A DNA stretch of 64,000 bases from a virus. The notes below the pieces were generated by a model that saw nothing but the letters and a program-made list of their open reading frames with translations, was not told the origin of the DNA and ran no database searches. The position numbers and the translations under genes are program-made. This document shows positions 16,993 to 47,143 of the stretch, piece by piece (within the stretch, counting starts at the first letter, position 1; every line of letters begins with the position of its first letter). The DNA lies in IMG/VR virus record IMGVR_UViG_3300044647_001247, positions 45,820 through 109,819 of that record; one strand, 5' to 3'.

Positions 16993-16996
16993 TATT

Positions 16997-20134: not shown

Positions 20135-20146
20135 TAAACTTAGCAA

Positions 20147-20190
20147 GTTTAATTTTAAACTTTAATAGTTTTTGCTTAAATTAATAGTAG
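20147..20190 (+). promoter_or_regulatory. Promoter-like element, long form, copy 2 (similar at 6910)
   Basis: The palindrome GTTTAATTTTAAAC (20147-20160) is followed by a T run and TTGCTTAAATTAATAGTAG, ending exactly at the ATG of the next gene. The block order matches 6910-6955 with a 2-base shorter spacer. If the RNA starts in the terminal TAG the message would be nearly leaderless. Confidence 0.55.
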
Positions 20191-23206: not shown

Positions 23207-26200
23207 ATGGAAAACTTCAAAATAAATACAAATTTATATATACCTTCTACACCAAATGTTGAGCAACAGCTGAAAGAAACTCAAGCTAGTGAAAACTACA
23301 TTCAATCTGTAATACCTAGTTCTTCTGATATTGCAGCTAGTATATCAATGCCTGGAGATAGTATTGTAGATCTTATTAATCAGATAGAAAAGTATAATGC
23401 TGAGAGTGAAGCTTTACTAGCTCAATCCAACTCTGAAATATCAACTATCGGGTCATACCAATTTGATCAACGAGCTGCCATAAATGATATTGCTAAGAAA
23501 CTAAATCCTAAAGCACCTACATTAAAATCATCTGCTTCAGGTGCTTATTTAGGTACAGTTGGTGAACTAGAACGTTATTCTAGTTCAGATAATTTTAAAA
23601 TCTTTGGTTTTAATAGTGCTTTAGGAGAAGAACAAGAATATAAATATGGTCGTGCTATGACCTGGGGTGATACATTAGGTAAAGCTTTTGCTGGTGGTGG
23701 AGCTATTGCTGCTGATACTTTTATAGAAGGATGGAAAGGCTGGGGACGTATGGCTGAAGCTTTATATACATGGGATTCTTCTAAACTTATGGGTTCCAAA
23801 GAAGAACGTTATGAAATTGCTAAACAGCAAGAAGCAATCTTTAATAAGTATGCTATATATAATACAGCTGAATCAGAAGATTCTCTTTTAAATAGACAGT
23901 TCTTTGGTAACATGTTACAACAAGCTGGTTTTACAATTGGTGCATTTGGTCAAATGATTGTAGAAAACTATTTAACTGCAGGTATAGGAAAAGCCATTAG
24001 TGCATCAGTTGGTATGTTTGCAAAAGCTAAAGGGCTTAGCACAGCTATGAACGTAGGTGAGCTCATCAACGACACCCGTAAAGCTCAACAGGTTATTTCA
24101 AACACACAAAGAGTAAACAACGCTCTTAAGCAGATACCTCGTGCCTTAGTACCATTATTTGGTACAATAGAAGATGCAGTCAAAGCCGGTAAGGCTGGAG
24201 CTGGTACACTTCAGTTGGGTATGATTGGTCTAGGTGGTATCAAAAGAGAGCTTAGTATATTTAACATGGCTCGTTCAGAAGCCATCTTTGAAGCTGCTTC
24301 CACTTATAAAGAGATGGAAGATAAACTACTAAAAGAGTTTATAAATACAAACGGAAGACAACCTACTAATACAGAACTGGAAAACATCCGTAAAACAGCT
24401 GACGACGCTTCGTCTGATAACTTTGCTTCCAACTTGGGCATCCTGACACTGATGAATAGGATACAGTTTGGTAACATGTTCAAAAACTTTAACACCTCTA
24501 AGAAGATCTTTTCTAAGAACGCTGCTGCTTTTGCAGATGATGTATTTGAGGTGAGCGGTAAGGTAGGAGGTAAAATAGTAACCAAGGTTTATGAGAAAGG
24601 CTTTATAGGAAGACTTGGATCAGTTGGAGATATTGCTAAAACTTTTGGCAAGAAGAAAGCTGCCTGGGAAGCCAGTAAGTCCATGGGTCTTGGTCTAATG
24701 AAGTTTGAAGGATCTGAAGGAGCCCAGGAACTTATACAGGAAGCGTCTAATAAAGGATTGAGTCAGTATCATTATGACCTATATCATGGTAAGAAAGGAT
24801 ACGGTAGTAAACTAGACAATGTACTGGAAAGCATTCAAAACCCTATCACAGATATTGATGGGGCCAAAACCTTTTTGATGGGTGCTCTTACAGGACGTTT
24901 CATTGCTCCTGTATCATATGCCGGTGGTAAAATATTTGGTGGTAAACAAGCTCAAGAAATAGCTGCTCAGAAAAGACAGGCTATTGATGTCATCAACAGT
25001 TTCTACAGTGATCCTACACAATACACTAAAGAGTGGATTGCTAACGTGAAGGTTCAGAACAAAGCTGCTGAAACAATGGAACAAGCTGTTGCCAACGGTG
25101 ACAAGTATACATTCTATAATGCTAAAGATTCTGCTTTTGCAAAAGCTATATCATCAGCTATTAAACTTAATATGTATGAATCTTTAAAAGACACAATGAA
25201 TGAGTTGGGTAAAAACTTAAGTGATACAGAGTTTAAAGAAGCTTTTAATATGGATGCTAGTGAAACTAGTCGTCAAGGAGTATCAGAGTTTATGAATAAT
25301 GTTACTCAACAAATGGATGATTATTTTACTTTATATACCAACTTAAAAGATAAATATGGAGACAGGATTGTTCCTGAGCTATATCGTTATAATAAACCAG
25401 AAGAATATGAGAATGTAAAAATTTCTAAGATTGCATTAGACAATGCTATAGAAATGCTTACTACTAATGTATATAAAGCAAGACAGTCTACTAAAAGAGC
25501 AGTGCAATTGCAACGTGAGATGGCTGCTAATATAAATATAGGAGCTTCTTCTATAGAAGTTTTAAACAAACTAGGAAGTGAACAATCTATTAATGATCAT
25601 GTAGATATCCTTCAAAAAGAAGTTTCTTTTTATGAGAGTGTTGATACATTATCACCTGAGCAAAGAAAAGAATTTAATAGAAAGAAGCAAGAACTTAAAT
25701 TAGCTGAGGGTTGGAAAAACGCGTTTGAAGATGTAATGACTGGTCAGGGAGAAAGTTATTTTGATCCTAAGACAATTCGTGAAATATATGCTGCTTATGA
25801 AGAGTTAGTTAACTTTTATAATAAGTCTGAAGAAAAAAATGTTGCAGTTTCTATAGAAGATATAGAAGACAACTTTAGTAAGTTCTTAGATTATATACAG
25901 CTTAATAAAGATAATAAGGCTTATATAGATGCTATGAATATTTTGGCTGATCCTTATAATATAAGCTTGATTATAGAAGCTACAAAAAGCTCGCTTAAGG
26001 AAATAGGTACACGTAATCAAAAAGAACACATACAAGAAGTGCAGGCCATTACAGAAGATAAGATAGAAGAACCTGCTGAACTAATAGAACTTGTAGAAGA
26101 AGCTAAGTATCCTGATTTACCATCTATAAACAAACCTGAAGAACCTGCTCCATCTGCTCCTGAGCAATCACTTAATAAAGAACAAAAGGCTGCTTTAGAA

Positions 26201-26518
26201 AAAGCTTATCAGGAAGCATATGCTAAGTATAAACAAGATGCAGAAGCTGCAGGTAATAGTATTGCTAACTACGGACAATGGAAAGATTTTAGTGTTGCTG
26301 CTAAAGATATACGTAAAAAATTTGATTTAGGTGGTGTTTCTGAAAAAAAAGAACCTGAAACTTACGTAGAGAATTTTGATGTAGCTACAGTTAACACAGA
26401 AAATATTTCCACAGATGTTGTAGATGAGATTTTGAGTTCTAGAGAATCAAAAAAAAGTGATAACTTTGATAGTAATACGGATGAATTTTTCACTAACCTT
26501 ACTGTTTGTAATATCTAA
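23207..26518 (+). CDS. Large internal virion protein with hydrophobic helices
   Basis: A protein of 1103 residues. After a polar N-terminus, residues ~155-300 contain Gly/Ala-rich hydrophobic helices (GKAFAGGGAIAADTF, QQAGFTIGAFGQMIVENYL, IGKAISASVGMF) compatible with membrane insertion during DNA entry. The rest is helical and charged, ending in an acidic Pro/Glu-rich linker near residue 970 and a Ser/Asp-rich tail. No enzyme motif recognised. It lies eight bases before the polymerase gene. From about 24.05 to 25.1 kb the third codon positions are visibly richer in C and G than around it, which may mark recombination. Confidence 0.65.
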   Translation: MENFKINTNLYIPSTPNVEQQLKETQASENYIQSVIPSSSDIAASISMPGDSIVDLINQIEKYNAESEALLAQSNSEISTIGSYQFDQRAAINDIAKKLNPKAPTLKSSASGAYLGTVGELERYSSSDNFKIFGFNSALGEEQEYKYGRAMTWGDTLGKAFAGGGAIAADTFIEGWKGWGRMAEALYTWDSSKLMGSKEERYEIAKQQEAIFNKYAIYNTAESEDSLLNRQFFGNMLQQAGFTIGAFGQMIVENYLTAGIGKAISASVGMFAKAKGLSTAMNVGELINDTRKAQQVISNTQRVNNALKQIPRALVPLFGTIEDAVKAGKAGAGTLQLGMIGLGGIKRELSIFNMARSEAIFEAASTYKEMEDKLLKEFINTNGRQPTNTELENIRKTADDASSDNFASNLGILTLMNRIQFGNMFKNFNTSKKIFSKNAAAFADDVFEVSGKVGGKIVTKVYEKGFIGRLGSVGDIAKTFGKKKAAWEASKSMGLGLMKFEGSEGAQELIQEASNKGLSQYHYDLYHGKKGYGSKLDNVLESIQNPITDIDGAKTFLMGALTGRFIAPVSYAGGKIFGGKQAQEIAAQKRQAIDVINSFYSDPTQYTKEWIANVKVQNKAAETMEQAVANGDKYTFYNAKDSAFAKAISSAIKLNMYESLKDTMNELGKNLSDTEFKEAFNMDASETSRQGVSEFMNNVTQQMDDYFTLYTNLKDKYGDRIVPELYRYNKPEEYENVKISKIALDNAIEMLTTNVYKARQSTKRAVQLQREMAANINIGASSIEVLNKLGSEQSINDHVDILQKEVSFYESVDTLSPEQRKEFNRKKQELKLAEGWKNAFEDVMTGQGESYFDPKTIREIYAAYEELVNFYNKSEEKNVAVSIEDIEDNFSKFLDYIQLNKDNKAYIDAMNILADPYNISLIIEATKSSLKEIGTRNQKEHIQEVQAITEDKIEEPAELIELVEEAKYPDLPSINKPEEPAPSAPEQSLNKEQKAALEKAYQEAYAKYKQDAEAAGNSIANYGQWKDFSVAAKDIRKKFDLGGVSEKKEPETYVENFDVATVNTENISTDVVDEILSSRESKKSDNFDSNTDEFFTNLTVCNI

Positions 26519-26526
26519 TATATTCT

Positions 26527-29500
26527 ATGAATAAGTGTAGTATAAGTATACAGATTTTTGCCAATTTTACTAAGCAACTGTTAGCTCAAGATGCTAAGTA
26601 TAAAAACTTTGCTGAAGTTGCAACGTTTATTATCAAGCGTCCTGGACAACCTGATAGTGTAAAGATGGTTGCTCTTAAAGGACTTGCTAAGATATATGAT
26701 CAGCTGGCTAAAAAAGACCAGACCTTTAGCTTTTCTGCAGATGACAGCAAAATCATTGATGTAGATTTGGAAAAAGATGATTTAGAAACACAGTTTAAAA
26801 ACATTGCTGCTAACTACCAAGTACGTCCTTCAGCTCCTCTTTCTATAGATACTATCAAGAATGATATAAAAAATCTTTCTTCTCTTCCAGTTTTGCAATT
26901 GCAGGACGCTGTTACTAAAATCGTAAAAGACATAGCTGCTCTTGCCAAAACTAATTTTCGTAAGAGTGCAGACGACATGGTTAAAATCATTGGTGAGCTT
27001 TATGATAGAGCTATTACTGAGCTAGATAAAAATACAGCAGTGAGTCCTATTATTCGGAACTCACTTACACAGCTTCTTAATACCGAAAAGAATATTGCTA
27101 CAGAAGCTGCCAGTGATTATATTCCTTTAAAGAATACAATATACGGGGATACTAAAATCATAGTCAAGAAAGACGGTGGAATATTTGAAGTTTTAAGAGA
27201 CACTACTGGAAAATATATTGACATTAATTCATCAGATAGTTCAGAAGTAATATTTGATAGATCTGTTGGAGATCAGTTATTTAATCTTAGAGTGGACAGT
27301 TCACCTTTTGTAGGTGGTAACGATGGCACTCAATATATATTTTCTCACAATGAGTTGAGAAATGGTATGACCTTACGTGATCGTACCGGGAAAGTTATAA
27401 CTAACCAATTGCTTAGTTTTGATAATCCACTTTCTGCTCTTGAAGTGGTAGCTTCCCGTACAGAAATACAACGTAACCAAGACCGCATTAGTAGAATTCG
27501 TTCAGAAATACCTACACGTACTCTTGAAACACAAGAGGTAGTCTCACAACAAAAAGCTTTGCTAGCAGGTAATCCTGTGCTTAGTGTATTTTCTCCTTTA
27601 GAAGGTGCACAAATACAGTTTCGTATTCCAGGGCAGCAAGGAGCTATGATATTATATGGTATAGATAACTATGCTATTATCTATCCTGATAATCGTACAG
27701 TGGCTGTAGACTTTTCTGAGACTCAGAAACAACTTATTTTAAAGCTTGCCCGCAAGAATACTACTAATGAAAATGGAATAAATGTAACAGAACCTATTAC
27801 AGAAGAAGACTTTTATAATCTGAAAGCCAGTTATGAAAAATTTAAAGATTTTAAGAAAGCTGTACAAGAAATCCTTGATCAAAATAAAAACCAATCTGAA
27901 ATTATTTTACCACAAGCTTTAGTTACTGCTTATATTAATCTTGCCCGTACTGGTGAAGCTATTGCTGTTGCACCCAGTGCAGATCAACAAGCTAGTCTAA
28001 CTACATTGTTAAACAAAGAAGGAGGTCCTGGACAGATTAGTTTTAATGTAGTAGAAGCTTTAGATGATAATTCTTATTCTGAACCACGTCGTGTTACTAA
28101 ACCTATTATAGTAGCTAAACAAGGTGGTGTTTGGACATTTATATCAGACCTTAAGGGTAATGAGATGGTTGCTGTTGATCGTGATGATAGAAAAGAATAT
28201 ATGTCTTTTTCTGATTATATGCAAAATGAACTTAAAATATCTCCAGATATTAACATACAAAAGTTTCCAAGTTCTTTTGCATGGCTTTATCAGAAACCTA
28301 ATGGTAAATTACAACCTATTGCTCTTAAGTATATACCAGTAGAAAATAGTGCAGATATTGCACGACTTGCTATGGGGTTTGGTCAGTTACTAAAAAAAAT
28401 GAGTGATCCTCAAACAGAAGGACCAAAAGAACTCAGAAACTTTAACTTGAACGTCTTTGGTTTTTCTCCCTATAATCCAACAGGTGCTACAAGTTTTGCA
28501 GGTGACTTTGACGTATTTAAAGATCCAAGTGGTGAACGCAGTGTGTCTATTCAGATTCGTCCTATGACTATGAACTGGAGCCAAGTACCTCGGGATGTAA
28601 GAAAGGCTTTAACTGTATATATAGATGTTCCTGTTATGACTGCTTTTTTAAAAGTGGTACGTATAGCTGCAGAAATACCTGCATTTAAATCACAGAAAAA
28701 TGACCTTAATACAGCGGCTGGTAAAAATGCTTTGGTAAAATTTATAGATGAAGATCCCCAGCTTCGTAAACAACTTATGAGTGCTTATGAAGATATTAAT
28801 ACACACCTCTATCGTAAGTTTCAGTCTATAGGTGAAAAACTTACTAAGACTTCTTATAATGGCGAGTTTGATATACCTAAGATTTACACACTGATGGAAA
28901 ATGAAAAAAGTGATCTTAGTGGAAGATGGAAGCTTAAAATAAAAGATCGTCAAACTGGTAATGATGTAACTAACTTTAACAACTATCGTAGCATGACTAC
29001 GGAAGAAGTGTTTACATTTGGTGGTATTCAGGCTGTGTTTGCAGGACCAAACGTTTCTGCTATACAGACAGTTAATAAACCAGCTCCAGTAACACAAAAT
29101 CCTGCTAACAACACTACAGCAGATAATGTTCCTGGTACTGCTGGAACTATAGAGATAGATCTTAATTTTGAAGATGGTGCTTTTGAACTTGCTATGGATA
29201 CTGAACTTTTCCAAGCATATCAAGCAGGGCAGTTTCAGCAAGAACTAGATTGGATTAAAGCAAATCTACCAAAAGAAATCAGCGTAGAAGACCTAGCTGA
29301 TATTATGGATAATCTTAAAGCTGAAGGTCGTGTACTTGGTTATTTTAGAGACCGAGTTATCTATCTCAATGAACAGCTTTCTGGTAGAGGATCAGGATAT
29401 CATGAAGCATTCCATGGTGTGTTTAGAAAACTAATGGATGCTTCTACTCGTGATCGTTACTTAAAACTTACCAAAGAAAAAATAGGAGCTGTTTCTAAAG

Positions 29501-32500
29501 AGCAGATTCAAGAATTCCGTCAAAGACGTTCTCTTTATCATTTATCTAATGCTCAGGTTATAGATCGTATAGCAGAAGAATATTTAGCTGATAAATTTAA
29601 AGCATATAAGTTAGAAGGTCGTGGTGCTCAGGAAGGTTGGCTAAATAAGCTAATGAACTTAATAGATAGTATCATTCGTTTTTTTAACAAAAATTATAAA
29701 GAAATAGATAACCTGTTTCAAAGAATTGATACAGGATTCTATAAGAATGCAAAGATTGTAGGTGAGTTTAAGGAAGGTGCGTTTGAAATGCTATCTACCC
29801 GTAGTACACTAGTAACAGGTCCTACAGGAAAAGCTATACAAAGAAAGAACTTTCTTAATAAAATTGACCAAGCACAGTTGATAAATAGACTAGCTGAACT
29901 AACTTCTTTTTCAGTAGGTAAAAACTTTGAAGAAAAGTTTGCAGGAGCTCGTAAAGAGCTAATAGCAGAAATGAACATAGATAACCTAATTGCTCAAAAT
30001 CCTTCTGAAGAATTAGCTATTCGTACACGTTATGAATCCATTCTTCAGGATAAACTTTATACTCTAGGTGTACCTGTATCTATGATTAATGAAACAGGTA
30101 ATGTTACTATGGATCAGAACTTAAATTTAATACAAAAGGATCCTGTACAGCTAGCAGCTTATAATAAGCAGCAAGCTGATACATTAAAGTCTTTAAAGCA
30201 ACAAGTTAGTCAAAAGATAAACAACATTTCTATATCAAACATATACTTTGATCCCGACGCTATGCTGAATGAAGAAGAGTTTGATGAAGATGATCTAGGT
30301 GATGAAACAAATTATGAAGATAGCTTTGTAAACATAAATACTTTGGACGGCTTGAGCCGTCAGTTTCGTTCATTTTTTGGTCTAATTTCTTATATTCATA
30401 CAGACGATCTGGGAGTACAAACCACCCGTATGGTAGATGGAGCTACAGTTTTTGATACCATGATGAAAATCTTAGCTGACACACCTGTAGAAAAGATGAT
30501 GTCTCGTATGGAAGAAACTCTAGAAAAAATGCTAGAGTCTGATAACATGGTAGCATATGATCGTCTTAATGCAGTGTGGGATAAGATGAAAAAATACTTT
30601 GGTCTTAATGAAAATAATCAACCTACACGTAATACAAATCTTTATAATCAGTTTATTGATGTATTTAATGTAGCAGATCTATCTACAGATGTATACTATG
30701 TAAACACTCGTAATGATTCTTCTAGTCTTAGAGTTATTGATGCCACTATACAAAATGATATTAATCAGTATTATGAAAAGTTAAGAAGAAAGTATGAGAA
30801 TGGTTTTATGAAAAAGTCTACCAAAGATCGTGAAGATATTCTTCGTGTATCCAAAGCTATTCTTAAAACTGAAGTGACTGTACCAACAGACCTTGGTAGT
30901 CAAAGTTATAATTCAATAAAAGCTAAAGCAAAAAAAGTACACAAGGCTCTTAATGATATAGGTATTATATTACCTCTGCATACCGTTATTTACTCTTTAA
31001 TTGCAATTGATGTAAAAGAAAATAAAGTAGAGTTAAAACCTAAAAGTAAATCTTTAAAGCAATACATATTAGATCAAGAACTTATTAATACAGGAGCTTA
31101 TCTTGATAAAGATTTTTTTGATAAAATTGTTAGATATGTAGATGAAAATACAAATATTTTTGATAAGTCTGTAGATAAAGATGTTGCTACAGAAGGAACT
31201 CTTGGTCTTACTGACTTAGAAAAGAATCAGCTTCGTTTAAAGAAAAGAGGACTGGGTTTAATTAATTCTGTACTAAAAAAGACAGGACGTTATGTTGTTA
31301 AGTATGATCTTGATACTGTAGTGTCTGTATTTCGTAATGCAGAAGGTAAAAATGTTTATCGTTATGTACGTAAAAGTCCACCATTATTAATAGCACAGTC
31401 ATTGAGAGAAAAAGGATGGCAAGATACTTATTCTGATTTTTCAACTGTTGCTAAGTTCTTACAAGACAACCCACTTACAGCTAATAAGCCTGAAAATTTG
31501 CTCTACTTACAAAACATTGAGCTTAGAAGTTTTGGTGGAGCTCGTCAAACACTTAAAGGTGTAGAACGAGATGGTGTTACAGCTAAGACTATTGATACAG
31601 CAGGTTACTATCTAAGCTATGTCCTGATGTCTATGAACCGTAAAACAACTATAAATAATAACGCTGCTATTACAACTTTTTCTAGGATGCTTACTCAAAA
31701 TGAAGCTTCTAATACTATATATATGATACCAAATCTATATAAAAGAATGGTAACAAATAATGGATATATAGTTGAAAATAAAGAAAATATAGTGGTTAAA
31801 GGTTTTGTAGACGTTATCAAACAAGAATACCAGCGTATACAAAGAGAATGGACTACACGTAAAGATCAGAATAAAGAAAAATTTAATAATTATAATGCTG
31901 TTTTAAATCCTGATGGATCTGTAAACACAGAAGATCCATCTTTGCGTGCGTACAACTTTAATATGCTTGCTGATTTTTTTGAGTTTAATAATCTTGCATC
32001 TAAAACATCTAATCCACTACGTGCTGATATCCGCAATCAACTTATACAAAGTGCAAAAGATGGAATAAAGTTTGATAAGCTTGATATTGGTTTACTGCAG
32101 CGTGAACTTCTTAATTATGCAGAAGAAAAGTTTACTGCTCATTTAAACATACTAAAGTCTTACAAACTAGTTGAAGAAAATGAACAGACTAGTGAACTTA
32201 TGAGCCGTCTTATTCCTGATAGTTACACCGTTGATGGTACAACTGTAAGTATTGAATCAGAGGATTCTAATCTAGAGTCTTATCTAAAAGATGTCTATTT
32301 TAACGTATTTATAAACAACTTGCAGGTGTCACAGTTTTTTGATGGTGATATAGCAATGGGTGTTAAAAACTTTGCTGACTACTTTAAGCGTCAGAAAATG
32401 AACGTTGCTGCTGGACCTTCTATGAAGAGTGGTAATCATACTGTAGCATATGTAGATGAAATTACTGTTCTTATTAATGATAACAATCTTGAAGAAGGGC

Positions 32501-35500
32501 AGTATGACGAGAATGATGAAATGCCTGAAGGATTTATAAATCGTTCACAAAAAGTCAAAAGTTTTGATGGTCAGTCTGTTACAACAATAGAACATCGTAT
32601 TGAACAATATCGTAAACAGGGAAGACTTGTTGATAATGCAGAAGAGCAAAAATCTGTAGAAGAGATTCTTAAAGCTAGCCGTTACAGTAAACTTACTGAA
32701 GAAGAAGTAGACTTCTTGAGAAGTAACAAGGTAGTGCTTGGACCAAAGAAAACAGTAACGGGTGCTTTAGTATACTATCATAAACAAGCAGAACACGTTT
32801 TGTTTCGTACAGATAGTTCTTATATGGTTGTACCAGATGGAATGACGCGTGCTCAGGTTGAAAAAAGACTAGCAGAATTATATAATCAAACTGACATTCT
32901 CCGGTCCAAGCTTCGTAATGCAGATACATATGATATCACAGCAGAGGGAGGTGTGCAATTTATAGAAGATCAGCTTCGTGATGTTTACTCTCAAATCCAT
33001 AGATATTGGGAACCATTACCAAATCGTGCTGCTCATCACTATATGCTTAATTCTATGGAATTTAATGATATTGACCAGCTTATGGATCTCACTTCTTCTA
33101 AAAAAGCTACATTACTTCCTACAAAAGTTAACAGTGGTGCTATTACTGATCTCAGTAAATCTAAACTTTTAGTACCAAATATTTATAAGTTTGATCAGGT
33201 AGAAACTTCTAAAGTTTCTACAGATATTAGTTCTACTACACAGCTTCAACATCTGATAGATACAGATATTAATCTTGATGATAAAGAAGTTGACTCTAAT
33301 TTAAAAGATGCTATTCTGCAATATCGTAAGTTAACTGGTAGACTATCTCAAGTAGGTCTTGACAGACTAAATAACATCATTAAAGATGAAAATGGTAATG
33401 TAGAAGTACGTGAGATTATCCGTAGTATGAGAGATGGTCTTGAAACTCAGGGAGCTGATAGTAACACTTTAAAGTTCTTTGAGATAAGAGATGATCAGCC
33501 TGTACACAACATTAATCTTCCTTTGTTGAAGAAGATGTTTACTTATTACTACTTTGCTTTTTATTCTAATAATGTATTTAGTAAACGTCAAAGTGGTAGA
33601 AAAGATTATATAGTTACTAGCTGGGGATATAAACTTATTGAAAATCGTACTACTGGTGAAGTTATTAAAAGTGATGAGATTGCAAAAAATCCACAAAAGT
33701 ATAATGACACTTCTAAATATAAGCTTCGCTACCCTGGTGTAAAGTATGATAAAGTTAACAACCGTTACATTGTAGAAGTTATGGTTCCTCGTCCGTATTT
33801 TAAGAACCAGGAAGAGATTGAACTTTTTGAACGTAAACTTAGTGAGTTTTTATCTACACGTATTCCAACAGAAGATAAACGTTCTATGATTGTAGCTAAA
33901 GTTGTAGATTTTATTGATGGAGCTTACCAAAATACTATTGTTATACCACAGCTTATTCACGTACTTTCAGGTTCTGACCTTGACATTGACTCTTTATATT
34001 CTCATACGTTTGCTACTTATGAAGACTTTAACGGTAAGCAAAAAGTATATGGTGAGGCAAACACTCCTAAAGAACAGTTTGTAGAATATTTACAAAGTAT
34101 GATGCAAGATGAAACACTAGCCTCACTTATAAAAGTAGAATTAGATAAAGTGTATAAAGAAAAAATCACTGATGTTCCTGAATCTTTACAAGATTTAGCA
34201 GAAGATTTAAATTTACCTTTTTACAATTACACTAAAGAACAGTGGATGGCTGCTTTAGATGAACTCAGAATACAACGTAACAATATATATGAGCAGGTGC
34301 AGTCTACAAAAGAAAAGCGTAAGCAGACTCAAGAGATTTATGAAAAAGTAAAAGCTGAAAATGAACAAATGGTTCAGCAAATTACTGATAGTCTCAAAGC
34401 TTTTTTAAAAGAGCAAGACATAAAAACTACTCCAGATAAATTTGCTGAATTACTTTGGGAACAGACAGCTATAATGAAATCTAATTTCCGTGAGCAGGGT
34501 GATCTTCGTGTTTCTTTAGAAAAAATGAATAGCCGTATTAAAGATAGTTATGAAAATATAGCTACAGCTAATAAAAGAATTACTAATTCATCTAATGAAT
34601 TACAACGTATTAGTAGATTGATGAAAGTTTTAGCCACTTTGAACATACTTGCTCGAAAAAATATGCCTATTACAGCAAAACAGTATGCTAAAGAAGTTTC
34701 TAAAAAAGGATCACTTGTTCCTGAAACATTGCAAAATGATCTACTTCAGGTCAAGATAGATATACTTAGTAATCCTTATACATTTAAAAAATTATATATA
34801 CAAGAACGTTCTGATATATCTAGGTTTGAAAATATAGCAGTGGCTATGAAAAAAAGTATTAAAGATGTTATTAATAAAAATAATATTTTTTCACCAGATG
34901 GTATCATTGGATCTCGTGATATGGTTAAAAGTTCTGGTGCAGGTATTGGTATAGCAGCTAACGTTAATAAGTTTGCAGCTTTTGCTTCTAAGAAAGGCTT
35001 GAAGCTAAGTAATCCTATATGGAATGTTAACGGTAAAAACTATTCAGACTTTACAGCTGATAGTGAAAACCGGCCGATATCAGACATTGGTAATGCATTA
35101 GGTATGCAGGCAGATGCTAAAAGTAATCCTATTCCTGCTGTACTTAATCTTAATGAAGTTAGTTTACCTATCACACTAGTTATGATTGCACAAAAGCTTC
35201 CTTTAGAGATGGCTATTACAATCAATTCTGTACCACTTATATATAAAGTGATACAACGTGTTATGGAAGAAAAACGTGAAATACGTACAATAGCAGATTT
35301 GTTTAACAAACGTAGTCTTACAAGCATTGCTCGTGATGAGATGAGTGAGGCCATTGAAAAACTTAAAGAAGATGGTTTGCAGGCAGAGCTTTTTGAAGTA
35401 GATGATGAACAAAACATTATCTATGATATGGCTGGTAATCCTAAATTTAAAACTGATTTGTTTTTAGATTATGACTTTAATTATACTCCCACAGATAGAT

Positions 35501-38031
35501 CTTCCGCTGAAGACTTTGGTTTTAAACTTAACAACAAACTGGGTATTCCATTGTCAGATGATTCTACACAAGTTTATTTGCTGCATAAATATATTCAGAC
35601 AAGTAATCTAAACAATGATGTATTTGCTTTAGGTTCTATCTTAAACTTGTATAAAAAACTTAAACCAAGTTGGAAGTCTGTAGACCGGACATTAAAGAAT
35701 TATGCTTATCTAACTGGTGTACTTACAGAGAAGAGTCAGTTTGCTAATATTGAGGAGATTCTAAAAAACTCTCCAGAGTTTAAACCTTTAATACAAGGTT
35801 TAAAAGAACTTTCTGAAAATGCTGAAGTTATTCTTATAGAGCGTCATCCTGTAATGAAAGCTATTGATGATACTATTAAAGGAGGTTTACAAGCATTTAA
35901 TTTAGATGAACAAGTAGAACAAAGAATCACGGATCAAATTACTAAATACTTTATTATTAACAAGTTTCGTCAGCAAACAGAAACAGAGCTTAATGAAGAA
36001 TTACTTAAACCTACTCCTAATCTTCTTGTTGTACAGTCACTTAAAACTGCTCTTGAAATGTTTAATGCTGATTTTTGGAAAGGAGAACCTACAAATGCAG
36101 ATGTTACTTCTATAGAGCAGGACTTTCAATATCTTAAAGATAATCATGAGGGTAATCCTTTTGTAGACTATTTAAAAGAGCGTACACGTCAAGGAATAAG
36201 TTTTATTGAAGCTCTTAGTAGAATGAAACTTGAAAAGGAGTATGCAGAAAATGTTAATGATGGATTTTTACTATTGCAGAATTCACCTGATACTCGTAGT
36301 AAACTTATAGCTCGTAAACTATTTCACTATACACTTGTAAAAGATGGACTAGGGTATGGTTCAAATACTTTTATCAATTATATAAACCCGCAGGATCCAC
36401 AAACATTTGAGAAAATATCCAAGTATTTGAATGAGTTTCAAACAACTTTGGTTGAGTTTAACAAGAAGAATCGTGTTCTTATACAAAAAGGTAAAGCAGA
36501 AAGTTATTACAAAAAGTTCAATGATTTGCTTAATGACTTCTTTGGTAAGAAAGCTGATTTGAATGTATACATGAGTTCTATCATTAACCGTATAGGACTT
36601 TACGCTGGCAACAATGACATTATGGTTAAGAGTCGTATGGCACTTATCAAAAGTAAGAAAAGCCGATTTGCAGGTATAGAGCCTGCGTTGATAATGGAAG
36701 AGATGAAATACTTACTTCCTGATACACATGCTCTCACTCCTAAAGATGTTTATACAGAGCTGGAAGAGAATCCAGAGAATATTGAGTTTTGGTTGCCTAC
36801 TTCTAAAGAAACTGGTATAGGTAAACTTGTAATAGATACCGCTAAAACCTATTCTAATATTTCTAATATTATTCTTTCTCAAATGAATGTTCGCCAGGGT
36901 GCACAATTTAATGGCGATGATGGTAAAACTCAGACTTATGTGTTTCCACTGTTTGTAAAGAATAACTTTGGTCAAATACTACGTTTAACAGAAGTGGATG
37001 GTGCACGCCTTAGTGAGAAAGTTATTAACAATCTTACTTCAAAACTTCAGGGAAAATCTTATAATGACAGTGTATCTGGTGTTCGTGCTACTTATATAGT
37101 GGCTGAACAAGAAGGTACTGATAGTATTCTTAATCTTGGATTTAGTGAGCAAGAAGCTCGTGAACTTTACAAGTTTGCACAGGAAGATAACGACAATCAA
37201 TTTTTGGATATAAGTATTACTGCTAAATTTGATCAAGTACTTCAAAAACTACGTAATGTTTATAAGGTAGAGCCCAAACGTCTTAATTTATTAGCTCGTA
37301 TTGTTAAGAGTGAAGTGATGAATAGTGCTGCCATTACATTTGAAAAGCAAAAGAATAATTTGTTTTATATTGACTACACAGTAGATACAAAAGATCGTGG
37401 TCCTGTACAACGTAAACTTTATCTTCGTCCAAGTGTTACTGATCCTTTAAGTATTACTATAGAAATGAGGGAACGTGAAATAGTAACTGGAATAGAAACT
37501 TTGGTACAGCTTGAAGATAATATGCGTGAGTTTCCTGCAGTAGAGATTGAATTTGTAAAACGTGGTAAGCAATTCCGTGGACCTAGGGTTACAAAGCCAG
37601 CTAATCCTATCACTAAAGAAATGGTAGCTGAAGTGGTAAAAAATTATCAAGTTCCACAAGATAGAAAGCTTAAAACAAAATTAACATTTACTATATTTGC
37701 AGATACTCAGTGGAATCTTCTAAAAGAAAATCTTAATCTAGATAAACTTGTTCAGATATTTAATGATGTACATACTATTTCAGTAAATCAACAAGCTCCT
37801 ATACAAGAATCTTCTAGTGCTTTTTCTTCATTTACTATTCCAGCTGGTTTTGTATTACGTCCTAATGCTCCTGATATAAAAGCTTATATTTCTCAAATGC
37901 GTAAAGTTAGTGATAAGAGTGAAACTGAGCTTATAGAAATGTATAAGAAGATTAATCTTATTGCTACTTCTACTAGAGATATAAATGATGTAAGAAAGGA
38001 TAAAGATTCTGGTGATTGTATTATTTTATAA
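26527..38031 (+). CDS. Giant virion RNA polymerase polyprotein with zincin domain
   Basis: A protein of 3834 residues. At residues 2484-2488 it has D-L-D-I-D within VLSGSDLDIDSLY, the triple-aspartate metal loop of crAss-like virion RNA polymerases (related to multisubunit beta' and to the RNAi polymerase QDE-1). Upstream, residues 959-963 are H-E-A-F-H in YHEAFHGVFRKLM, with E1017/E1018 in AEEYLADKF as third-ligand candidates: a zincin, possibly self-processing. A long coiled coil lies near residues 2590-2700. The first ~900 residues match nothing I can name. In phage phi14:2 the homologous protein is injected and transcribes early genes. At 3834 residues this ORF is much larger than the ~2200-residue phi14:2 enzyme, so other domains are fused to it. 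Confidence 0.85.
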   Translation: MNKCSISIQIFANFTKQLLAQDAKYKNFAEVATFIIKRPGQPDSVKMVALKGLAKIYDQLAKKDQTFSFSADDSKIIDVDLEKDDLETQFKNIAANYQVRPSAPLSIDTIKNDIKNLSSLPVLQLQDAVTKIVKDIAALAKTNFRKSADDMVKIIGELYDRAITELDKNTAVSPIIRNSLTQLLNTEKNIATEAASDYIPLKNTIYGDTKIIVKKDGGIFEVLRDTTGKYIDINSSDSSEVIFDRSVGDQLFNLRVDSSPFVGGNDGTQYIFSHNELRNGMTLRDRTGKVITNQLLSFDNPLSALEVVASRTEIQRNQDRISRIRSEIPTRTLETQEVVSQQKALLAGNPVLSVFSPLEGAQIQFRIPGQQGAMILYGIDNYAIIYPDNRTVAVDFSETQKQLILKLARKNTTNENGINVTEPITEEDFYNLKASYEKFKDFKKAVQEILDQNKNQSEIILPQALVTAYINLARTGEAIAVAPSADQQASLTTLLNKEGGPGQISFNVVEALDDNSYSEPRRVTKPIIVAKQGGVWTFISDLKGNEMVAVDRDDRKEYMSFSDYMQNELKISPDINIQKFPSSFAWLYQKPNGKLQPIALKYIPVENSADIARLAMGFGQLLKKMSDPQTEGPKELRNFNLNVFGFSPYNPTGATSFAGDFDVFKDPSGERSVSIQIRPMTMNWSQVPRDVRKALTVYIDVPVMTAFLKVVRIAAEIPAFKSQKNDLNTAAGKNALVKFIDEDPQLRKQLMSAYEDINTHLYRKFQSIGEKLTKTSYNGEFDIPKIYTLMENEKSDLSGRWKLKIKDRQTGNDVTNFNNYRSMTTEEVFTFGGIQAVFAGPNVSAIQTVNKPAPVTQNPANNTTADNVPGTAGTIEIDLNFEDGAFELAMDTELFQAYQAGQFQQELDWIKANLPKEISVEDLADIMDNLKAEGRVLGYFRDRVIYLNEQLSGRGSGYHEAFHGVFRKLMDASTRDRYLKLTKEKIGAVSKEQIQEFRQRRSLYHLSNAQVIDRIAEEYLADKFKAYKLEGRGAQEGWLNKLMNLIDSIIRFFNKNYKEIDNLFQRIDTGFYKNAKIVGEFKEGAFEMLSTRSTLVTGPTGKAIQRKNFLNKIDQAQLINRLAELTSFSVGKNFEEKFAGARKELIAEMNIDNLIAQNPSEELAIRTRYESILQDKLYTLGVPVSMINETGNVTMDQNLNLIQKDPVQLAAYNKQQADTLKSLKQQVSQKINNISISNIYFDPDAMLNEEEFDEDDLGDETNYEDSFVNINTLDGLSRQFRSFFGLISYIHTDDLGVQTTRMVDGATVFDTMMKILADTPVEKMMSRMEETLEKMLESDNMVAYDRLNAVWDKMKKYFGLNENNQPTRNTNLYNQFIDVFNVADLSTDVYYVNTRNDSSSLRVIDATIQNDINQYYEKLRRKYENGFMKKSTKDREDILRVSKAILKTEVTVPTDLGSQSYNSIKAKAKKVHKALNDIGIILPLHTVIYSLIAIDVKENKVELKPKSKSLKQYILDQELINTGAYLDKDFFDKIVRYVDENTNIFDKSVDKDVATEGTLGLTDLEKNQLRLKKRGLGLINSVLKKTGRYVVKYDLDTVVSVFRNAEGKNVYRYVRKSPPLLIAQSLREKGWQDTYSDFSTVAKFLQDNPLTANKPENLLYLQNIELRSFGGARQTLKGVERDGVTAKTIDTAGYYLSYVLMSMNRKTTINNNAAITTFSRMLTQNEASNTIYMIPNLYKRMVTNNGYIVENKENIVVKGFVDVIKQEYQRIQREWTTRKDQNKEKFNNYNAVLNPDGSVNTEDPSLRAYNFNMLADFFEFNNLASKTSNPLRADIRNQLIQSAKDGIKFDKLDIGLLQRELLNYAEEKFTAHLNILKSYKLVEENEQTSELMSRLIPDSYTVDGTTVSIESEDSNLESYLKDVYFNVFINNLQVSQFFDGDIAMGVKNFADYFKRQKMNVAAGPSMKSGNHTVAYVDEITVLINDNNLEEGQYDENDEMPEGFINRSQKVKSFDGQSVTTIEHRIEQYRKQGRLVDNAEEQKSVEEILKASRYSKLTEEEVDFLRSNKVVLGPKKTVTGALVYYHKQAEHVLFRTDSSYMVVPDGMTRAQVEKRLAELYNQTDILRSKLRNADTYDITAEGGVQFIEDQLRDVYSQIHRYWEPLPNRAAHHYMLNSMEFNDIDQLMDLTSSKKATLLPTKVNSGAITDLSKSKLLVPNIYKFDQVETSKVSTDISSTTQLQHLIDTDINLDDKEVDSNLKDAILQYRKLTGRLSQVGLDRLNNIIKDENGNVEVREIIRSMRDGLETQGADSNTLKFFEIRDDQPVHNINLPLLKKMFTYYYFAFYSNNVFSKRQSGRKDYIVTSWGYKLIENRTTGEVIKSDEIAKNPQKYNDTSKYKLRYPGVKYDKVNNRYIVEVMVPRPYFKNQEEIELFERKLSEFLSTRIPTEDKRSMIVAKVVDFIDGAYQNTIVIPQLIHVLSGSDLDIDSLYSHTFATYEDFNGKQKVYGEANTPKEQFVEYLQSMMQDETLASLIKVELDKVYKEKITDVPESLQDLAEDLNLPFYNYTKEQWMAALDELRIQRNNIYEQVQSTKEKRKQTQEIYEKVKAENEQMVQQITDSLKAFLKEQDIKTTPDKFAELLWEQTAIMKSNFREQGDLRVSLEKMNSRIKDSYENIATANKRITNSSNELQRISRLMKVLATLNILARKNMPITAKQYAKEVSKKGSLVPETLQNDLLQVKIDILSNPYTFKKLYIQERSDISRFENIAVAMKKSIKDVINKNNIFSPDGIIGSRDMVKSSGAGIGIAANVNKFAAFASKKGLKLSNPIWNVNGKNYSDFTADSENRPISDIGNALGMQADAKSNPIPAVLNLNEVSLPITLVMIAQKLPLEMAITINSVPLIYKVIQRVMEEKREIRTIADLFNKRSLTSIARDEMSEAIEKLKEDGLQAELFEVDDEQNIIYDMAGNPKFKTDLFLDYDFNYTPTDRSSAEDFGFKLNNKLGIPLSDDSTQVYLLHKYIQTSNLNNDVFALGSILNLYKKLKPSWKSVDRTLKNYAYLTGVLTEKSQFANIEEILKNSPEFKPLIQGLKELSENAEVILIERHPVMKAIDDTIKGGLQAFNLDEQVEQRITDQITKYFIINKFRQQTETELNEELLKPTPNLLVVQSLKTALEMFNADFWKGEPTNADVTSIEQDFQYLKDNHEGNPFVDYLKERTRQGISFIEALSRMKLEKEYAENVNDGFLLLQNSPDTRSKLIARKLFHYTLVKDGLGYGSNTFINYINPQDPQTFEKISKYLNEFQTTLVEFNKKNRVLIQKGKAESYYKKFNDLLNDFFGKKADLNVYMSSIINRIGLYAGNNDIMVKSRMALIKSKKSRFAGIEPALIMEEMKYLLPDTHALTPKDVYTELEENPENIEFWLPTSKETGIGKLVIDTAKTYSNISNIILSQMNVRQGAQFNGDDGKTQTYVFPLFVKNNFGQILRLTEVDGARLSEKVINNLTSKLQGKSYNDSVSGVRATYIVAEQEGTDSILNLGFSEQEARELYKFAQEDNDNQFLDISITAKFDQVLQKLRNVYKVEPKRLNLLARIVKSEVMNSAAITFEKQKNNLFYIDYTVDTKDRGPVQRKLYLRPSVTDPLSITIEMREREIVTGIETLVQLEDNMREFPAVEIEFVKRGKQFRGPRVTKPANPITKEMVAEVVKNYQVPQDRKLKTKLTFTIFADTQWNLLKENLNLDKLVQIFNDVHTISVNQQAPIQESSSAFSSFTIPAGFVLRPNAPDIKAYISQMRKVSDKSETELIEMYKKINLIATSTRDINDVRKDKDSGDCIIL

Positions 38032-38048
38032 ACCTACCAAATATTAAT

Positions 38049-41000
38049 ATGCCCTGTCAAGTATTTAGAAATTCCAAACGTGAAATTGTTAAAGTGGTTG
38101 CACCTAATGGACAACCTTCCAAGTTATATAAAGACATTCTTGCTCGTCCTGAAATTGAGGGTAATAAAGAAGCTGCTCTTGATGTATGGTTGTCTGCCTA
38201 TACAGACGACTTTAAAAAGAAGTATGGTGACTGGGAGAATACTACAACGTCTACTACTGTTAATCAGTCATCCATAGTGGTAGATCAAAACGGAGAACCT
38301 TTAGCAAAGTATGTACTTCCTAATGCAACTTATAATCTTTCTGAAATTGCTGAGCAATTTAATTATCAGCAATCTGAGCTTCAAAGAAACTTTATGTTTA
38401 CTTCAGGTTTAACTTTAATGAGTCGTGACAAGGCCCAGAGAATAGTAGACTGGGTCGCTAAGAATAATAAGTATAACTCTATTGAAGTGAATATTCGTGG
38501 TGTCAATGACGGTTCTAAAATTATGTATACTGTAAACATATCTGAAAAACCTTTAAAACAACTTTATGAGCTGCAGTCTCAACAGTTGATTGAGCTTCAA
38601 AAATTTCAGATAAATCAAGTAATTAATAGATTAGCTATTAAGTTTCCAAAGCTGCAGACTAAATGGATTACAGCTGAAGATCTTATGCAGCAAGATCATC
38701 CTGTAGATGTATCTACTATACGTGGTTTTGTACGTGACGGTATAATATATCTTGTAGAAGGTAGAGCTACTGAGTCTATTGCTATAGAAGAAATTTTACA
38801 TCCTTTTATTGAATCACTTTTTCAAGATAATCGTGCTTTATTTACAGGATTATTTAACAAAGGAAAAGAGCGTTACCCGGAGTTATGGAAAAAGATCCAA
38901 GGAGCATATCTTGAAAGTCGTAGTTTTATTGAGGTTGATCGTAAAAAAGAACTAGTTACTCGTGTACTTCAGCAAGTATTACAGGAAGATATAAGTAATC
39001 CTGAGAAATCTTTTCAGGAACTAAAATCTCTTTTACAAAGATTCTTTAATTGGCTTAGTGAATTAATGCAGGAGGTTTTTGATATCCGTACGGATGGCAA
39101 TATTATGATACAGGCTTACAACCTTCCTACTAAGATTAGTTACGAAGAGCTGTCTGATATCATTAACACTAAAAATGTACAGCTTTCTACAGCTGTTGCA
39201 GATGCCAACTCTTATAACACAGACGGTGAAATGGACAACCAGGAATTAAACAATTCCAAGGACCGTAAACTTGCCCGTGTTGAAGAGCAAATGGACATCG
39301 TGCGTAGTGTAATTACAGACCTGAAAAAGGCTAAAGGAACTGACGCTAAGATTGCCACACTTGAAAAAGTGTTGATCAACCTTAATAAGTATCGTCAGAT
39401 TATACAAAATGATGAATACACTGTATCAGTTACCAATCTTACTGGTGGTGGCCAGATAGATAACCAGGAGACTTATAATGACTTTAAAGAGTTTGGAACA
39501 TTTATTCACTTTGTGCTGGAGAATGTACAGAAGATGAGTGTTGAATCTAATAAAAAAGTGACTACTATTCTTACTCGTGAAATGTTTGACATGCTGGCTG
39601 ATAACTATCCTGGTGAATTTAATATTGTAAACCTGGACAGAGATCAGATGTATGATATGAGCCAGGAGATGATTAGCTATTTGCAATACTATATTACTAG
39701 TGGGTACACGCTTCTTCCTGAAATATCAGTAGTTGGTAAGGATCGTAACGACCGTAACGTAGTAGGACGTGTGGACATCATGGCCATAGCCCCTAGTGGT
39801 GCTATAGAAATTGTGGACCTGAAAACCAAGAAAGTGTACACTAATGCACAAATCGGTTTAATGTTTAATAAACCATATCCTGTTGCTACAACTGAGCAAA
39901 CAGATACTGCATTTTCTAATACCAGGAGATCTGTATATGACAGTTGGGACACTCAGCTTGGTATATATGAAAGACTATATGCACAAGAAGGAATTCCGGT
40001 AGGTCGTAAAAGTGTACTGGTTTTAGTATACCGTGGTGACATGGTAGACGTTACAGATATTAATACTCCTGGTCAATTTCAGTTTGAATACTCAGGATAT
40101 GAATTTTTAAACTACAGCTCAGATCAACGTCAGAATGGAACTGATCTTGAAAAGCTTAACTATGCAAACACTGATCGTAAAGTTAAACGTGTTATTCCTG
40201 TAGCAGGAGAAGTTTTAGAAGATACAAAGACTTCTAAAGAGCCTATTATCTTTAACCTTAAAGATGAAGATTACAAACGTCTTTTAGCTAACCTGGAATC
40301 TATTGCTGCAGAAGAAATTAAAAAGATTGAAAAGTCTTTATCTGAACTGGATGAAAACAATGAGAACGATAAAAAGCTCAGGGATTATTATAAAGCACGC
40401 CGTGAGTCTATTCGTAAAATACAAGATAGTTTTAAGAAAGAAACTTGGGAACCTGCGTATAAGCTCACTGCTATTATGCAGTTTATGAGTGACAACACTG
40501 CTGCTATGAAGCAGACAGCACAGGACATTGCTAACATTAAAGATCCTGTAGAAAAAGCCCGTAAGCTGGACGACCTGAAGAACAAGGCTGTAGCCTTTAA
40601 CTATTTTCTTTCAGACATCCGTGAGTTGTTGATCAATCTTAATGATGAGCGTAATGATAAAGCTATCAACCTTCTTGATAATATCCAATCTAATATTGAT
40701 TACACTATAGGTATATTTAATGAGCTTGGTTTTAATTATCTAGTTGATATACTTAAAGATTCTATGAGTCCTGAGACTTTGCAAAAACTTAATGCGGAAA
40801 GATTTGAGAGTATAGATCCACTAATTACTCATCTTAAAAAGAAATTAGAAAAGCTTAAAAACCAAAAAGATCAAGGAGGTACTGGTACCACTATATCTTA
40901 TTCTATTTGGCAGGGTCTATCTAATATCGCCCGCAGTATTGCAAAGGTGCCTATTGATACCAAAAATGAAATAGAGGCTTTAGAAGTACGTATTAAATCT

Positions 41001-44000
41001 TTAGAGCTGCGTAAGCAGGGCATTAACCTGGATGATAAGTCTGTACGTCAATATATTCAGGGTATTTTAGATAAAAACTCTTTGTATTATATTGGATCAG
41101 ATACTACAGTGCTAACTGATTTTATAGCAGCATCATCAAATGCAGATTTAGGTGTTTCTGGTTTTGCCAATCATTTAAAGTTTATTGAGGTAAGAGCTAA
41201 ACAACTCTATGTAAACTTTATGGAAAAAAATAAATTTCAGAGTCTTTATGATAAATTCCGTAAAGGAAAAATGGACATTGATAAAATTAATGCTCCTATA
41301 TCAGAGATTAGAGAAGTTACTGAATATAATGCAGAAGGTCAACCTGTACTTAAAAGATTTCGTTCTTTTGTTGATCCTGTTACTGAAGAGTATAAAAATG
41401 TATTTAAAAAGTACTGGAATGACATGAGAATGCTAAATAAGCAGATTCGTGAAACTGGTGACGTAGATCAGAAAAAAGAACTTGCTCGTCAAAAAGCTGC
41501 TTTAGTACAGGCACAAAAAACATGGAGACTTGAAAACTCCCAGATGCCATACGTAGACGAGATCTATGAATTGGATAAGTTTTTGCCTGAAGAATTTAAG
41601 CAAAAAAGAGATGAGCTGTATGAAGAGCGTGAAGCTATAATGGCACAAGTAGGACTTAATGAAGAAGAGAAACTTTCTGAGGAAGACCTGGAAAGTCTTG
41701 CTGAAATAGAAATTCAGCTTAAAAAACTTAAGCAGGAAACCATTGAAAAAAACTCTTCTTACCAGGAGTATTTAGATAAGATGGAAAAATACTACAGCTA
41801 TGAACCTAATGTATTTTTCTTTGAGCGTATTAAAAGTTCCAAACAGATTGAGTATGCAGATGACCCGGTAGCTTTTAAAAAGTGGATGGAGCTGAATACA
41901 TACAAAACACCCAAGCAGGAATATTATGATACCCTTGCTGATCTGTATGATTCTTTATACAACTTACTTCCTAAGAATGAAGTTATCCAAGAGCTCAGAG
42001 AAAAACAGCGTTCTTTACTTAGAGCTTATAAACGTAATGGTTATGTTGATACACGTTTCTTATCGGCTGAAGACATTAAGCTTTATGAAGAAATAGAACA
42101 GCAGCTTTCAGAAATCCGTGAAGGCAGTGGAAGTATTATGGCAGGTCTTGGCAAAGAAGACAAAGATGCTGTACGTGAGATTTTTGATGAACTTAACTCT
42201 ATAACTGCAATATTTGTTAATCCTTATTATGATAGGGACTATTCTGCAAGAATGGAGGCGTTAGATCAAAAACTTTTTATATATAATGAAGCTAAACGTA
42301 AAAGTGAAGTGGCTACAGGTATAGATAAAATGCAGTTAGAGCGTGAAACTGTGCAAGCTCTTGAAAACTTTTATGAAGAAGAAAAAGAGTTTGAGACATG
42401 GTATAATATAAATCATGATAATGTATATGAGTCTAAGTTGTTAGGTAAATCTTTAAATCCTGTTGCTAAAGCATTTAACTTTGTAAGGCTTCCAAGTGAT
42501 CCTAATATGATGGAGGTAAAACCTTCACCAAAGTATAGTATCCGTAAGTTAAAAGAGGAAGCATTTAATAAGAACTACCAGGAAACAGTAGACGGGTTTC
42601 CAATGCCGCGTGGTATGAAATCTGTAGATGGTGTAGTAAAAATAGACAAGACATCTAAGTGGGTTAACTCCCGTTACGAGCAGCTCACTAAAGAAACAGA
42701 TAACTTTGATTTCTATACAAAGTTTGTTGGTCAATTTATTAAGATGCAAGACGAGACTTATGGTCGTAACCTAGGGTACTTCTTTCCTGGTTTTGAAGAG
42801 ACTTCCCTGCAGATCTATAAAGACAAAGGTTTTACAGAAGGTTTTAAAAAGAACTTTGAGATCTTCAAACAGAAGAACTTCTCTGCCAGCAGTATATTTG
42901 ATTACTCTGTTAATGAGATAGCTACTGGTAATGATACCATGGTAAGGATGAAGTTTAATCGTCCTATCAATCTTAATGAAGCACAAGCTACTGTAGATGG
43001 TATTGGCTCTGTGATTAGATGGTATGAAGAAGCATTTATTAATCAAGCTGTAGGAGAAGCTCAGCCTTTGGTAAGTTCTACGCTTTCTTATCTAAATAAT
43101 CTTTATAAACAGCTTGACCAGTCTAATATTGCTGATAAAGAAGTTCGTAAAACTAATTTAAAAAGAGTAATAGACTCTTACACTTTTGAATATGAAAAAA
43201 TAATTAAAGGTGAAACCAAGCTTAATCAGGGAAATATGAGTAAGTTAGGTGATACTTTATTAAAAACAATTGGTTTTACCCGTCTTGGTTTTGACCTGGC
43301 TAACCAGGTTGGTAACTACTTTTCAGGAAATGTTCAGACATTCCTGGGTGGTCACAAAACAGGACAGTATAACAATAAGAACCTGGCTGTAGCTAAAAAA
43401 CAATTCTATGGTTCAGATGGTTTGATGGCGTCATTACTGAGGGATTCTAATAAGATGTCAGGGTTTACCCACATGACCAAGATGTATCTTTTTTTTAATC
43501 CTGCTCAAGCTGATCTTAAAAATACATATGACAAAACTCGTTCTACTAGTCAGCGTATTGGTCAAGGAGCTATGGACTTACAACCTGCTTTTTGGATACA
43601 AGATAAAGGAGAAATAGAAATATCTTCTACTATATGGCTTGCTATGATGGATAACCGCAGGGTTAAACTGGTAGCTGAGCGTAATGCAGATGGTACTATT
43701 AAGACCTACCAGACTGAAGCTGATGGTACTGTAAAAACTATTTCTGCTTTTGAAGCATATGTTTCTAATGCTGAAGGAGAGATTGTTATACGTGATGATG
43801 TTGACTGGACAAAGAATGATGAAAAAAGTATTATGAGTGCTATATATTCTGAAATACGTAGAACTCAGGGTAACTATGCATCAGCAGATAAGACCAGAGC
43901 AGAACGTGGTATTCTTGGAAGGTTCTTGGTATTCTATCGTAAGTACTTAATGCCTTTTGTACTAAACCGTTTTGGTGCTAGAAGAGATAGTGCTGAATCT

Positions 44001-46867: not shown

Positions 46868-47143
46868 TTATTTTAAAAACTTAGATCTACTTATTAAAAT
46901 TTGTTCTTTGTATTCTGGTTCCATTTTAGATAATCTACAAGCAACATCTTTTCCATATAAAGGAGAGTGCACTCTATTTTTACTTGCACATTTTTGCAAG
47001 ACAGTTTTAGCATCTATACCAAGTCTATTACTAGCTTTTGCATAACTAGGATAGATGCCTATTAACTTTTTTAACTCAGGATCAAAAACCTTAACACACG
47101 TATCTGAGTGAAGTGTGTTAAGGCCTTCTTTAGGATGCTTCAT
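46868..47143 (-). CDS. Small putative DNA-binding protein (NUMOD1-like helix-turn-helix)
   Basis: A protein of 91 residues. The centre (IGIYPSYAKASNRLGIDAKT, residues 28-47, followed by VLQKCA) has the strand then helix-turn-helix pattern of NUMOD1-type modules found with homing endonucleases, here without a nuclease domain. The basic C-terminus (KEQILISRSKFLK) fits nucleic-acid binding. It overlaps the upstream gene by four bases. The assignment is by pattern only. Confidence 0.6.
   Translation of the reverse strand: MKHPKEGLNTLHSDTCVKVFDPELKKLIGIYPSYAKASNRLGIDAKTVLQKCASKNRVHSPLYGKDVACRLSKMEPEYKEQILISRSKFLK

Follow-up and report, generated by a model that had tools for sequence, protein, structure and literature searches.

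The open reading frame (ORF) at positions 26,527-38,031 of the window, by which we mean the whole 64,000-nucleotide stretch of viral DNA analyzed here, raised the question of why an RNA polymerase and a zincin-type metallopeptidase site should be carried by a single chain, and what the zincin does there. An earlier note on this DNA had claimed that the two motifs share one uninterrupted frame, and had offered two hypotheses, self-cleavage of a polyprotein or co-delivery of a protease with the polymerase. The ORF starts with ATG on the plus strand and encodes 3834 residues with no internal stop codon, making it one giant ORF, and the motifs were located in this frame exactly as claimed (HEAFH at residues 959-963, Glu1018, and DLDID at residues 2484-2488). 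The estimate of about 1.7 times the length of the phi14:2 enzyme also held, as the ratio to phi14:2 gp66 was 3834/2180 = 1.76. Assembly error was excluded as the cause of the frame, because a second, independent contig (87-90% identical) carried the same uninterrupted ORF of 3837 residues and the collection of fused ORFs comprised 49 non-redundant members. The crassvirus ring protein, the crass-type block order and the RNA polymerase identified the source virus, by sequence, as a crassvirus; its record is a contig of 109,819 bases. The ORF, its two neighbors and its domains, with the subunits designated A, B (the polymerase) and C, were as follows.

23207..26518, plus strand: upstream link, 1103-residue ORF, N-terminal half of subunit A, matching a relative in which A and B are wholly fused
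26527..38031, plus strand: fused zincin and virion RNA polymerase ORF, 3834 residues, C-terminal half of A joined to B
29176..29766, plus strand: zincin domain, residues 884-1080, from alignments and an AlphaFold2 core model (mean pLDDT 82)
29401..29415, plus strand: HEAFH, residues 959-963, predicted to supply two zinc ligands and the catalytic Glu; all but the alanine invariant
29575..29580, plus strand: Glu1017-Glu1018, of which the invariant Glu1018 is the predicted third zinc ligand
31720..35019, plus strand: RNA polymerase core, residues 1732-2831, homologous to phi14:2 gp66 (6vr4)
33976..33990, plus strand: residues 2484-2488 (DLDID), the metal-binding catalytic loop in the beta-prime-like barrel
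38049..44597, plus strand: downstream link, 2182-residue ORF, subunit C, starting at ATG 38049 and not at TTG 38016

The 1103-residue ORF was assigned as the N-terminal half of A because it matched the N-terminus of the wholly A+B-fused relative (E = 9e-14). Subunit C contained a PD-(D/E)XK nuclease domain at approximately 39,477-39,839 (E = 7.4e-5). Elsewhere in the window, a 1045-residue cargo-block protein free of cysteine (16997-20134, plus strand) carried a phage lysozyme domain (PF00959, E = 8.7e-17) and is a candidate peptidoglycan-cutting ejection protein, and a small NUMOD1-domain ORF adjoining the dCTP deaminase gene (46868-47143, minus strand) is likely a homing-endonuclease remnant.

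Searches of the whole protein against Pfam and PHROGs, and of the single sequence against PDB, gave no significant match. The profile built from the 49 relatives matched PDB 6vr4 with E = 1.4e-141, covering 6vr4 residues 561-1727, the greater part of the core of that enzyme. The DxDxD motif is expected 1.3 times by chance in a protein of such composition and proves nothing alone, so that the polymerase assignment was carried by the homology. The region of this motif, in the context RIPTE...GSDxDxD, was aligned in 12 rows, which were the window protein and eleven other crassvirus RNA polymerases. Invariant columns, either in all 49 relatives or in a 28-member clade, comprised Lys2075, Lys2086, Lys2192, Arg2445, Pro2447, Ser2453, Gly2482 and the three aspartates. 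On this homology, the polymerase part is a true virion RNA polymerase of the phi14:2 type, predicted to hold two double-psi beta-barrels in a single chain. For the phi14:2 enzyme itself, packaging in the virion and transcription of early genes have reportedly been established. An identity as an N4-type zincin-polymerase, with a T7-like polymerase domain, was rejected as the polymerase part is homologous to 6vr4.

The HExxH motif is no chance occurrence, being expected only 0.012 times in a protein of such composition. Gly955, His959, Glu960, Phe962, His963 and Glu1018 showed no variation across the 49 fused relatives, and the five residues of H-E-x-F-H...E remained invariant in 67 rows of fused and separate forms with a mean column identity of about 22%. 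The AlphaFold2 core model presented an N-terminal helix, three strands, the HExxH helix and the Glu helix in this order, which fits the element order described for the phage metallopeptidase core (PMC5512222). Foldseek searches of PDB with both zincin models matched no zincin structure, and Pfam gave no peptidase above the cut-off for the window protein. Among the predicted viral proteins of BFVD, the model matched giant proteins of crassviruses, with weak matches to polyvalent and IrrE-like proteins. The zincin fold is therefore a prediction from motif, conservation and element order, with no solved structure matching it. A weak match to Peptidase_U32, below the cut-off and in only two members, was rejected. 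In phiCrAss001-like phages, residues 904-1076 matched the terminal part of the large 'RNA-polymerase subunit'. Divergent zincins escape the zincin profile, which gave no match in the p-crAssphage or phi14:2 records; in a local comparison it matched the end of p-crAssphage gp45 (E = 2.4e-5, control windows at least 0.17), while in a whole-length profile-profile comparison the zincin of gp45 was not convincingly found. Taken as a whole, the sequence data supported the view that the window protein is one polypeptide in which an RNA polymerase core is combined with an intact zincin-type site.

A census anchored on the polymerase, and not on the zincin, covered 58 non-redundant viral contigs. Zincin and polymerase shared one ORF in 37 of them and the zincin lay in the preceding ORF in 14, while four loci were truncated and three were motif-free. 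With 37 of 51 non-redundant zincin-bearing loci fused, the fusion is ordinary in crassviruses and the commonest arrangement among the relatives sampled; the window ORF is a fresh member of an already known, common arrangement. In the polymerase tree, the separate forms (Intestiviridae; phiCrAss001, Dulem and cr106; phi14:2) were nested among the fused ones, requiring at least three changes. On this unrooted tree, whose fused rows were a selected set, the nesting makes a splitting of the chain in the cultured phages no less likely than a joining in the window virus. In Dulem virus 41, A ended 147 residues past HExxH and the next gene was B. The fused form of cr50_1 is named 'DNA helicase' in GenBank and that of cr118_1 'exonuclease V', and other names given to fused or catalytic polymerase proteins include nuclear pore complex-like protein and DprA-like protein. 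The polymerase gene of cr116_1 (10985-21850 of its sequence) was split by an HNH-type ORF, probably an intron.

If the protein were a self-cleaving polyprotein, the zincin would cut the fused chain at the A/B junction, freeing the polymerase before or after injection. Its location just N-terminal of the gene boundary seen in related phages agrees with such a role, as do the self-processing proposed for polyvalent-protein zincins and the processing of P1 DdrB (PMC5512222). An intact zincin was, however, retained in phages with A and B as separate genes, where there is nothing to cut, and its active site was invariant in these homologues too. Furthermore, HExxH was absent from the block proteins of cr106_1, as determined by a direct scan of its genome stretches, and of DAC15, Kolpuevirus and cr111_1, for which A, B and C were scanned. 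The zincin was found elsewhere in phi14:2 (subunit C) and in Fpv3 (past the polymerase core, at residue 4065). The A/B junction itself (residues 1073-1137) lacked a conserved motif, with no column reaching 60% identity. The N4 virion polymerase bears a zincin and is yet packaged unprocessed (PMC5512222), and the virion bands of phiCrAss001, at 150, 270 and over 300 kDa (PMC6235969), likewise spoke against cleavage. Self-cleavage was thus not supported as a conserved role, and we regard it as quite improbable. Alternatively, the zincin might have no catalytic activity and instead play a part in encapsidation or have a structural role. The zincin-containing region of the N4 enzyme is indeed needed for its encapsidation (PMC5512222), but the invariant columns in crassviruses were almost exactly the metal-binding and catalytic residues while structural positions drifted, making an idle domain unlikely. 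The second hypothesis of the earlier note, co-delivery of a protease, is plausible and the better guess of its two: phiCrAss001 gp47, a homologue with this zincin, belongs to the cargo proteins of the virion (PMC10172136, PMC6235969). Delivery thus fits, and the protease activity stands as a prediction.

The orthologues of A lacking HExxH in cr106_1, cr111_1, Kolpuevirus and DAC15, the latter two being cultured, are natural zincin losses, and they kept the terminal cysteine described below. Zincin-like HExxH motifs were also observed in the N-terminal part of subunit C or past the polymerase core (phi14:2 gp76, cr53_1 gp56, cr125_1 and Fpv3), and the zincin seems to be mobile within the block.

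An unexpected finding, outside the original question, concerned cysteine. The 3834-residue protein contained exactly two cysteines, at residues 4 and 3831, and each neighboring ORF contained one.

26507..26509, plus strand: Cys1101, sole cysteine of the 1103-residue upstream ORF, three residues from its end
26536..26538, plus strand: Cys4, one of the two cysteines of the 3834-residue protein
38017..38019, plus strand: Cys3831, four residues from the end, invariant in a 28-sequence clade
38055..38057, plus strand: Cys3, sole cysteine of the downstream ORF (subunit C, counted from ATG 38049)

There were thus four cysteines among 7119 residues, one in each four-residue junction end, an arrangement with a chance probability of about 2e-12. 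In the conservation map along the protein, Cys3831 was the single invariant residue within the C-terminus, the least conserved stretch. The three cargo ORFs further upstream (starts at 14047, 16997 and 20191) had no cysteine at all. A scan of the window for thioredoxin-like genes that could serve disulfides found none; some such genes are present in p-crAssphage and others.

The pattern was then formulated as a rule, in which cysteine is expected among the C-terminal nine residues of a block protein that has another block protein after it, and among the N-terminal six of one that has another before it. At the upstream junction, the two sides agreed in 55 of 55 non-redundant viral contigs (cysteine on both in 41 and on neither in 14; Fisher p = 2e-13), and the 14 'neither' cases were phages with A fully fused to B, in which the polymerase ORF is the first of the chain. 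At the downstream junction, between the end of the polymerase ORF and the start of the next, cysteine was present on both sides in 42/42. The final C-termini carried it in only 1 of 21 subunits C and 0 of 15 B+C fusions, and the background frequency at ends was 1/68 for N-termini and 6/68 for C-termini. The rule also described ten phages fetched after it had been formed, with cysteine in all joining ends (16/16 C-terminal, 16/16 N-terminal) and in none of the free ones (0/10 first N-termini, 0/10 last C-termini). These counts leave out the C-terminal cysteine of cr116_1 B1, since B is interrupted there by the HNH-type gene. The rule still held in phiCrAss001, cr85_1, DAC15 and Kolpuevirus, in which A lies on the strand opposite to B+C, indicating that the pattern acts at the level of the proteins and is not an effect of gene junctions.

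Two apparent exceptions, crAss002 gp33 (16185) and cr110_1 gp40 (14488), lacked an N-terminal cysteine at the annotated start. An in-frame Met-Ser-Cys fitting the relatives was present 32 codons further in the former and 14 in the latter, and both starts appear, from these sequences, to be annotated too early. The break points differed by lineage: some lay past the zincin and others preceded it, by about 960-1150 or by about 600-800 residues. The N-terminal-cysteine state changed about eight times on the polymerase tree, a number obtained with crAss002 and cr110_1 both scored as bearing the cysteine from the revised starts. The varying boundaries together with these changes indicate that cysteine appears whenever a new boundary appears. 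Internal cysteines, also present in some B proteins, occurred at about 1 per 1000 residues in the chain, compared with about 8 in other ORFs. The co-occurrence of cysteines across the junctions is thereby shown; a literature search outside Yutin 2018 and Drobysheva 2021 found no report of such a pattern.

From these sequence patterns we propose, with moderate confidence, that the crassvirus transcription proteins form a reversible head-to-tail disulfide chain of up to about 7000 residues, which would be threaded through the tail in order and reduced in the host. The C-terminal cysteine of each protein would be disulfide-bonded to the N-terminal cysteine of the next in the order A-B-C, A, B and C would cross the narrow tail as a single covalent string, and the reducing cytoplasm of the host would break the disulfides so that the proteins separate. 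The 3834-residue ORF would be the middle link, joining the C-terminal part of A, which ends in the zincin, to the two-barrel polymerase B, with the rest of A supplied by the preceding ORF and the nuclease-domain subunit C by the following one. A gene fusion would substitute a peptide bond for the disulfide at a given link, and if the two are interchangeable, gene boundaries are free to move. The zincin would be a dispensable, mobile passenger with an intact site, probably cutting a host or phage protein in trans after injection. The combination of chain, middle link and trans-acting zincin is, in our judgment, probably the best explanation as a whole, in which the bond, its timing and its role, as well as the activity and target of the protease, are what we infer. 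Because assembly takes place in a reducing cytoplasm, such a bond could form only at a late stage or upon release.

Several properties of phiCrAss001 bear on this proposal. Inter-subunit disulfides were seen in its virion proteins by cryo-EM, and folded cargo would not fit through its tail constrictions, with N-to-C ejection proposed for gp45 (PMC10172136); the polymerase cargo was not resolved in the cryo-EM maps. The scarcity of internal cysteine fits a chain that is unfolded in the tail, because stray disulfides would jam its passage. The three polymerase-block proteins of phiCrAss001 were detected as high-molecular-weight virion proteins (PMC6235969, PMC10172136). Their masses are 262.5 kDa for gp47, 276.9 kDa for gp50 and 154.5 kDa for gp49, about 690 kDa in sum, and their joining ends read CNS (C-terminus of gp47), CITTNSTIEE (start of the N-terminal peptide of gp50), ICGANTLYEL (C-terminus of gp50) and CAIIPQVR (N-terminus of gp49). 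On a reducing gel, a virion band of over 300 kDa exceeded each of the three (PMC6235969), possibly an incompletely reduced linked chain or a product of anomalous migration.

The terminal cysteines might also be paired without a disulfide, as a metal site or a docking contact in a folded, non-covalent complex, and the data indeed consist of the co-occurrence of cysteines across each junction. One cysteine per side would provide two ligands only, the chain ends were variable apart from the cysteine, and internal cysteines were scarce, as expected if stray disulfides were harmful. We consider such pairing doubtful, if a possibility to be kept in view. Ends are inherited together among related phages, which could be taken to mean that the pattern is a functionless artefact of gene ends or shared ancestry. 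This is highly improbable, since the ends arose at places that differ between lineages, with cysteine every time, the first and last proteins of the chain lacked it at their free ends, and genes on opposite strands conformed, with about eight state changes on the tree. The reducible disulfide chain is the reading that we retain.

If true, a covalent reducible chain would explain how several proteins are ejected jointly in a fixed order and then released, and why the gene boundaries of the block wander between crassvirus families. Partial unfolding has been proposed for the passage of large folded RNA polymerases through the narrower tail (PMC10172136). Crassviruses are the most abundant viruses in the human gut; phiCrAss001, phi14:2 and DAC15 are among those in culture. 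The fusion of a zincin to a virion polymerase is widespread. That both N4-like and crass-like polymerases, which are unrelated types, have it suggests a common role for zincins in the delivery of virion polymerases.

Compared with known systems, the window polymerase shares with phi14:2 gp66 (6vr4) a homologous catalytic core with the GSDxDxD loop and the possession of exactly two cysteines, which in gp66 are residues 3 and 2179 of 2180; the three block proteins of phi14:2 have one, two and one cysteines, all at joining ends. Unlike in the window, the phi14:2 polymerase chain has no zincin, and a HEIMH motif is present in the neighboring subunit C. In prototype crAssphage, gp45, annotated as 'putative RNAP associated protein fused to zincin protease', similarly has the zincin near the end of A, directly preceding the polymerase gene (gp44), but there A stands alone and B and C form one fusion, whereas in the window the fusion is between part of A and B, with C on its own. 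The Suoliviridae (cr50_1, cr118_1 and cr53_1) also carry zincin and polymerase in one ORF, of 4.6-4.9 thousand residues, followed by a subunit C starting with MQC or MIC, and these giant ORFs are named helicase, exonuclease or hypothetical protein in GenBank. They differ from the window in that the entire A is part of the fusion, which accounts for the absence of cysteine from the N-terminus. Virion polymerases of the N4 type, like the window protein, are always fused to one or more zincin-like metallopeptidase domains, but they have a single-subunit polymerase of the T7-like kind, which bears no relation to the two-barrel fold, and carry the zincin C-terminal to the polymerase (PMC5512222). 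Finally, gp47, gp50 and gp49 of phiCrAss001 are homologues of A, B and C with terminal cysteine pairs, all detected in virions (PMC10172136, PMC6235969), although they are three separate proteins with A encoded on the other strand.
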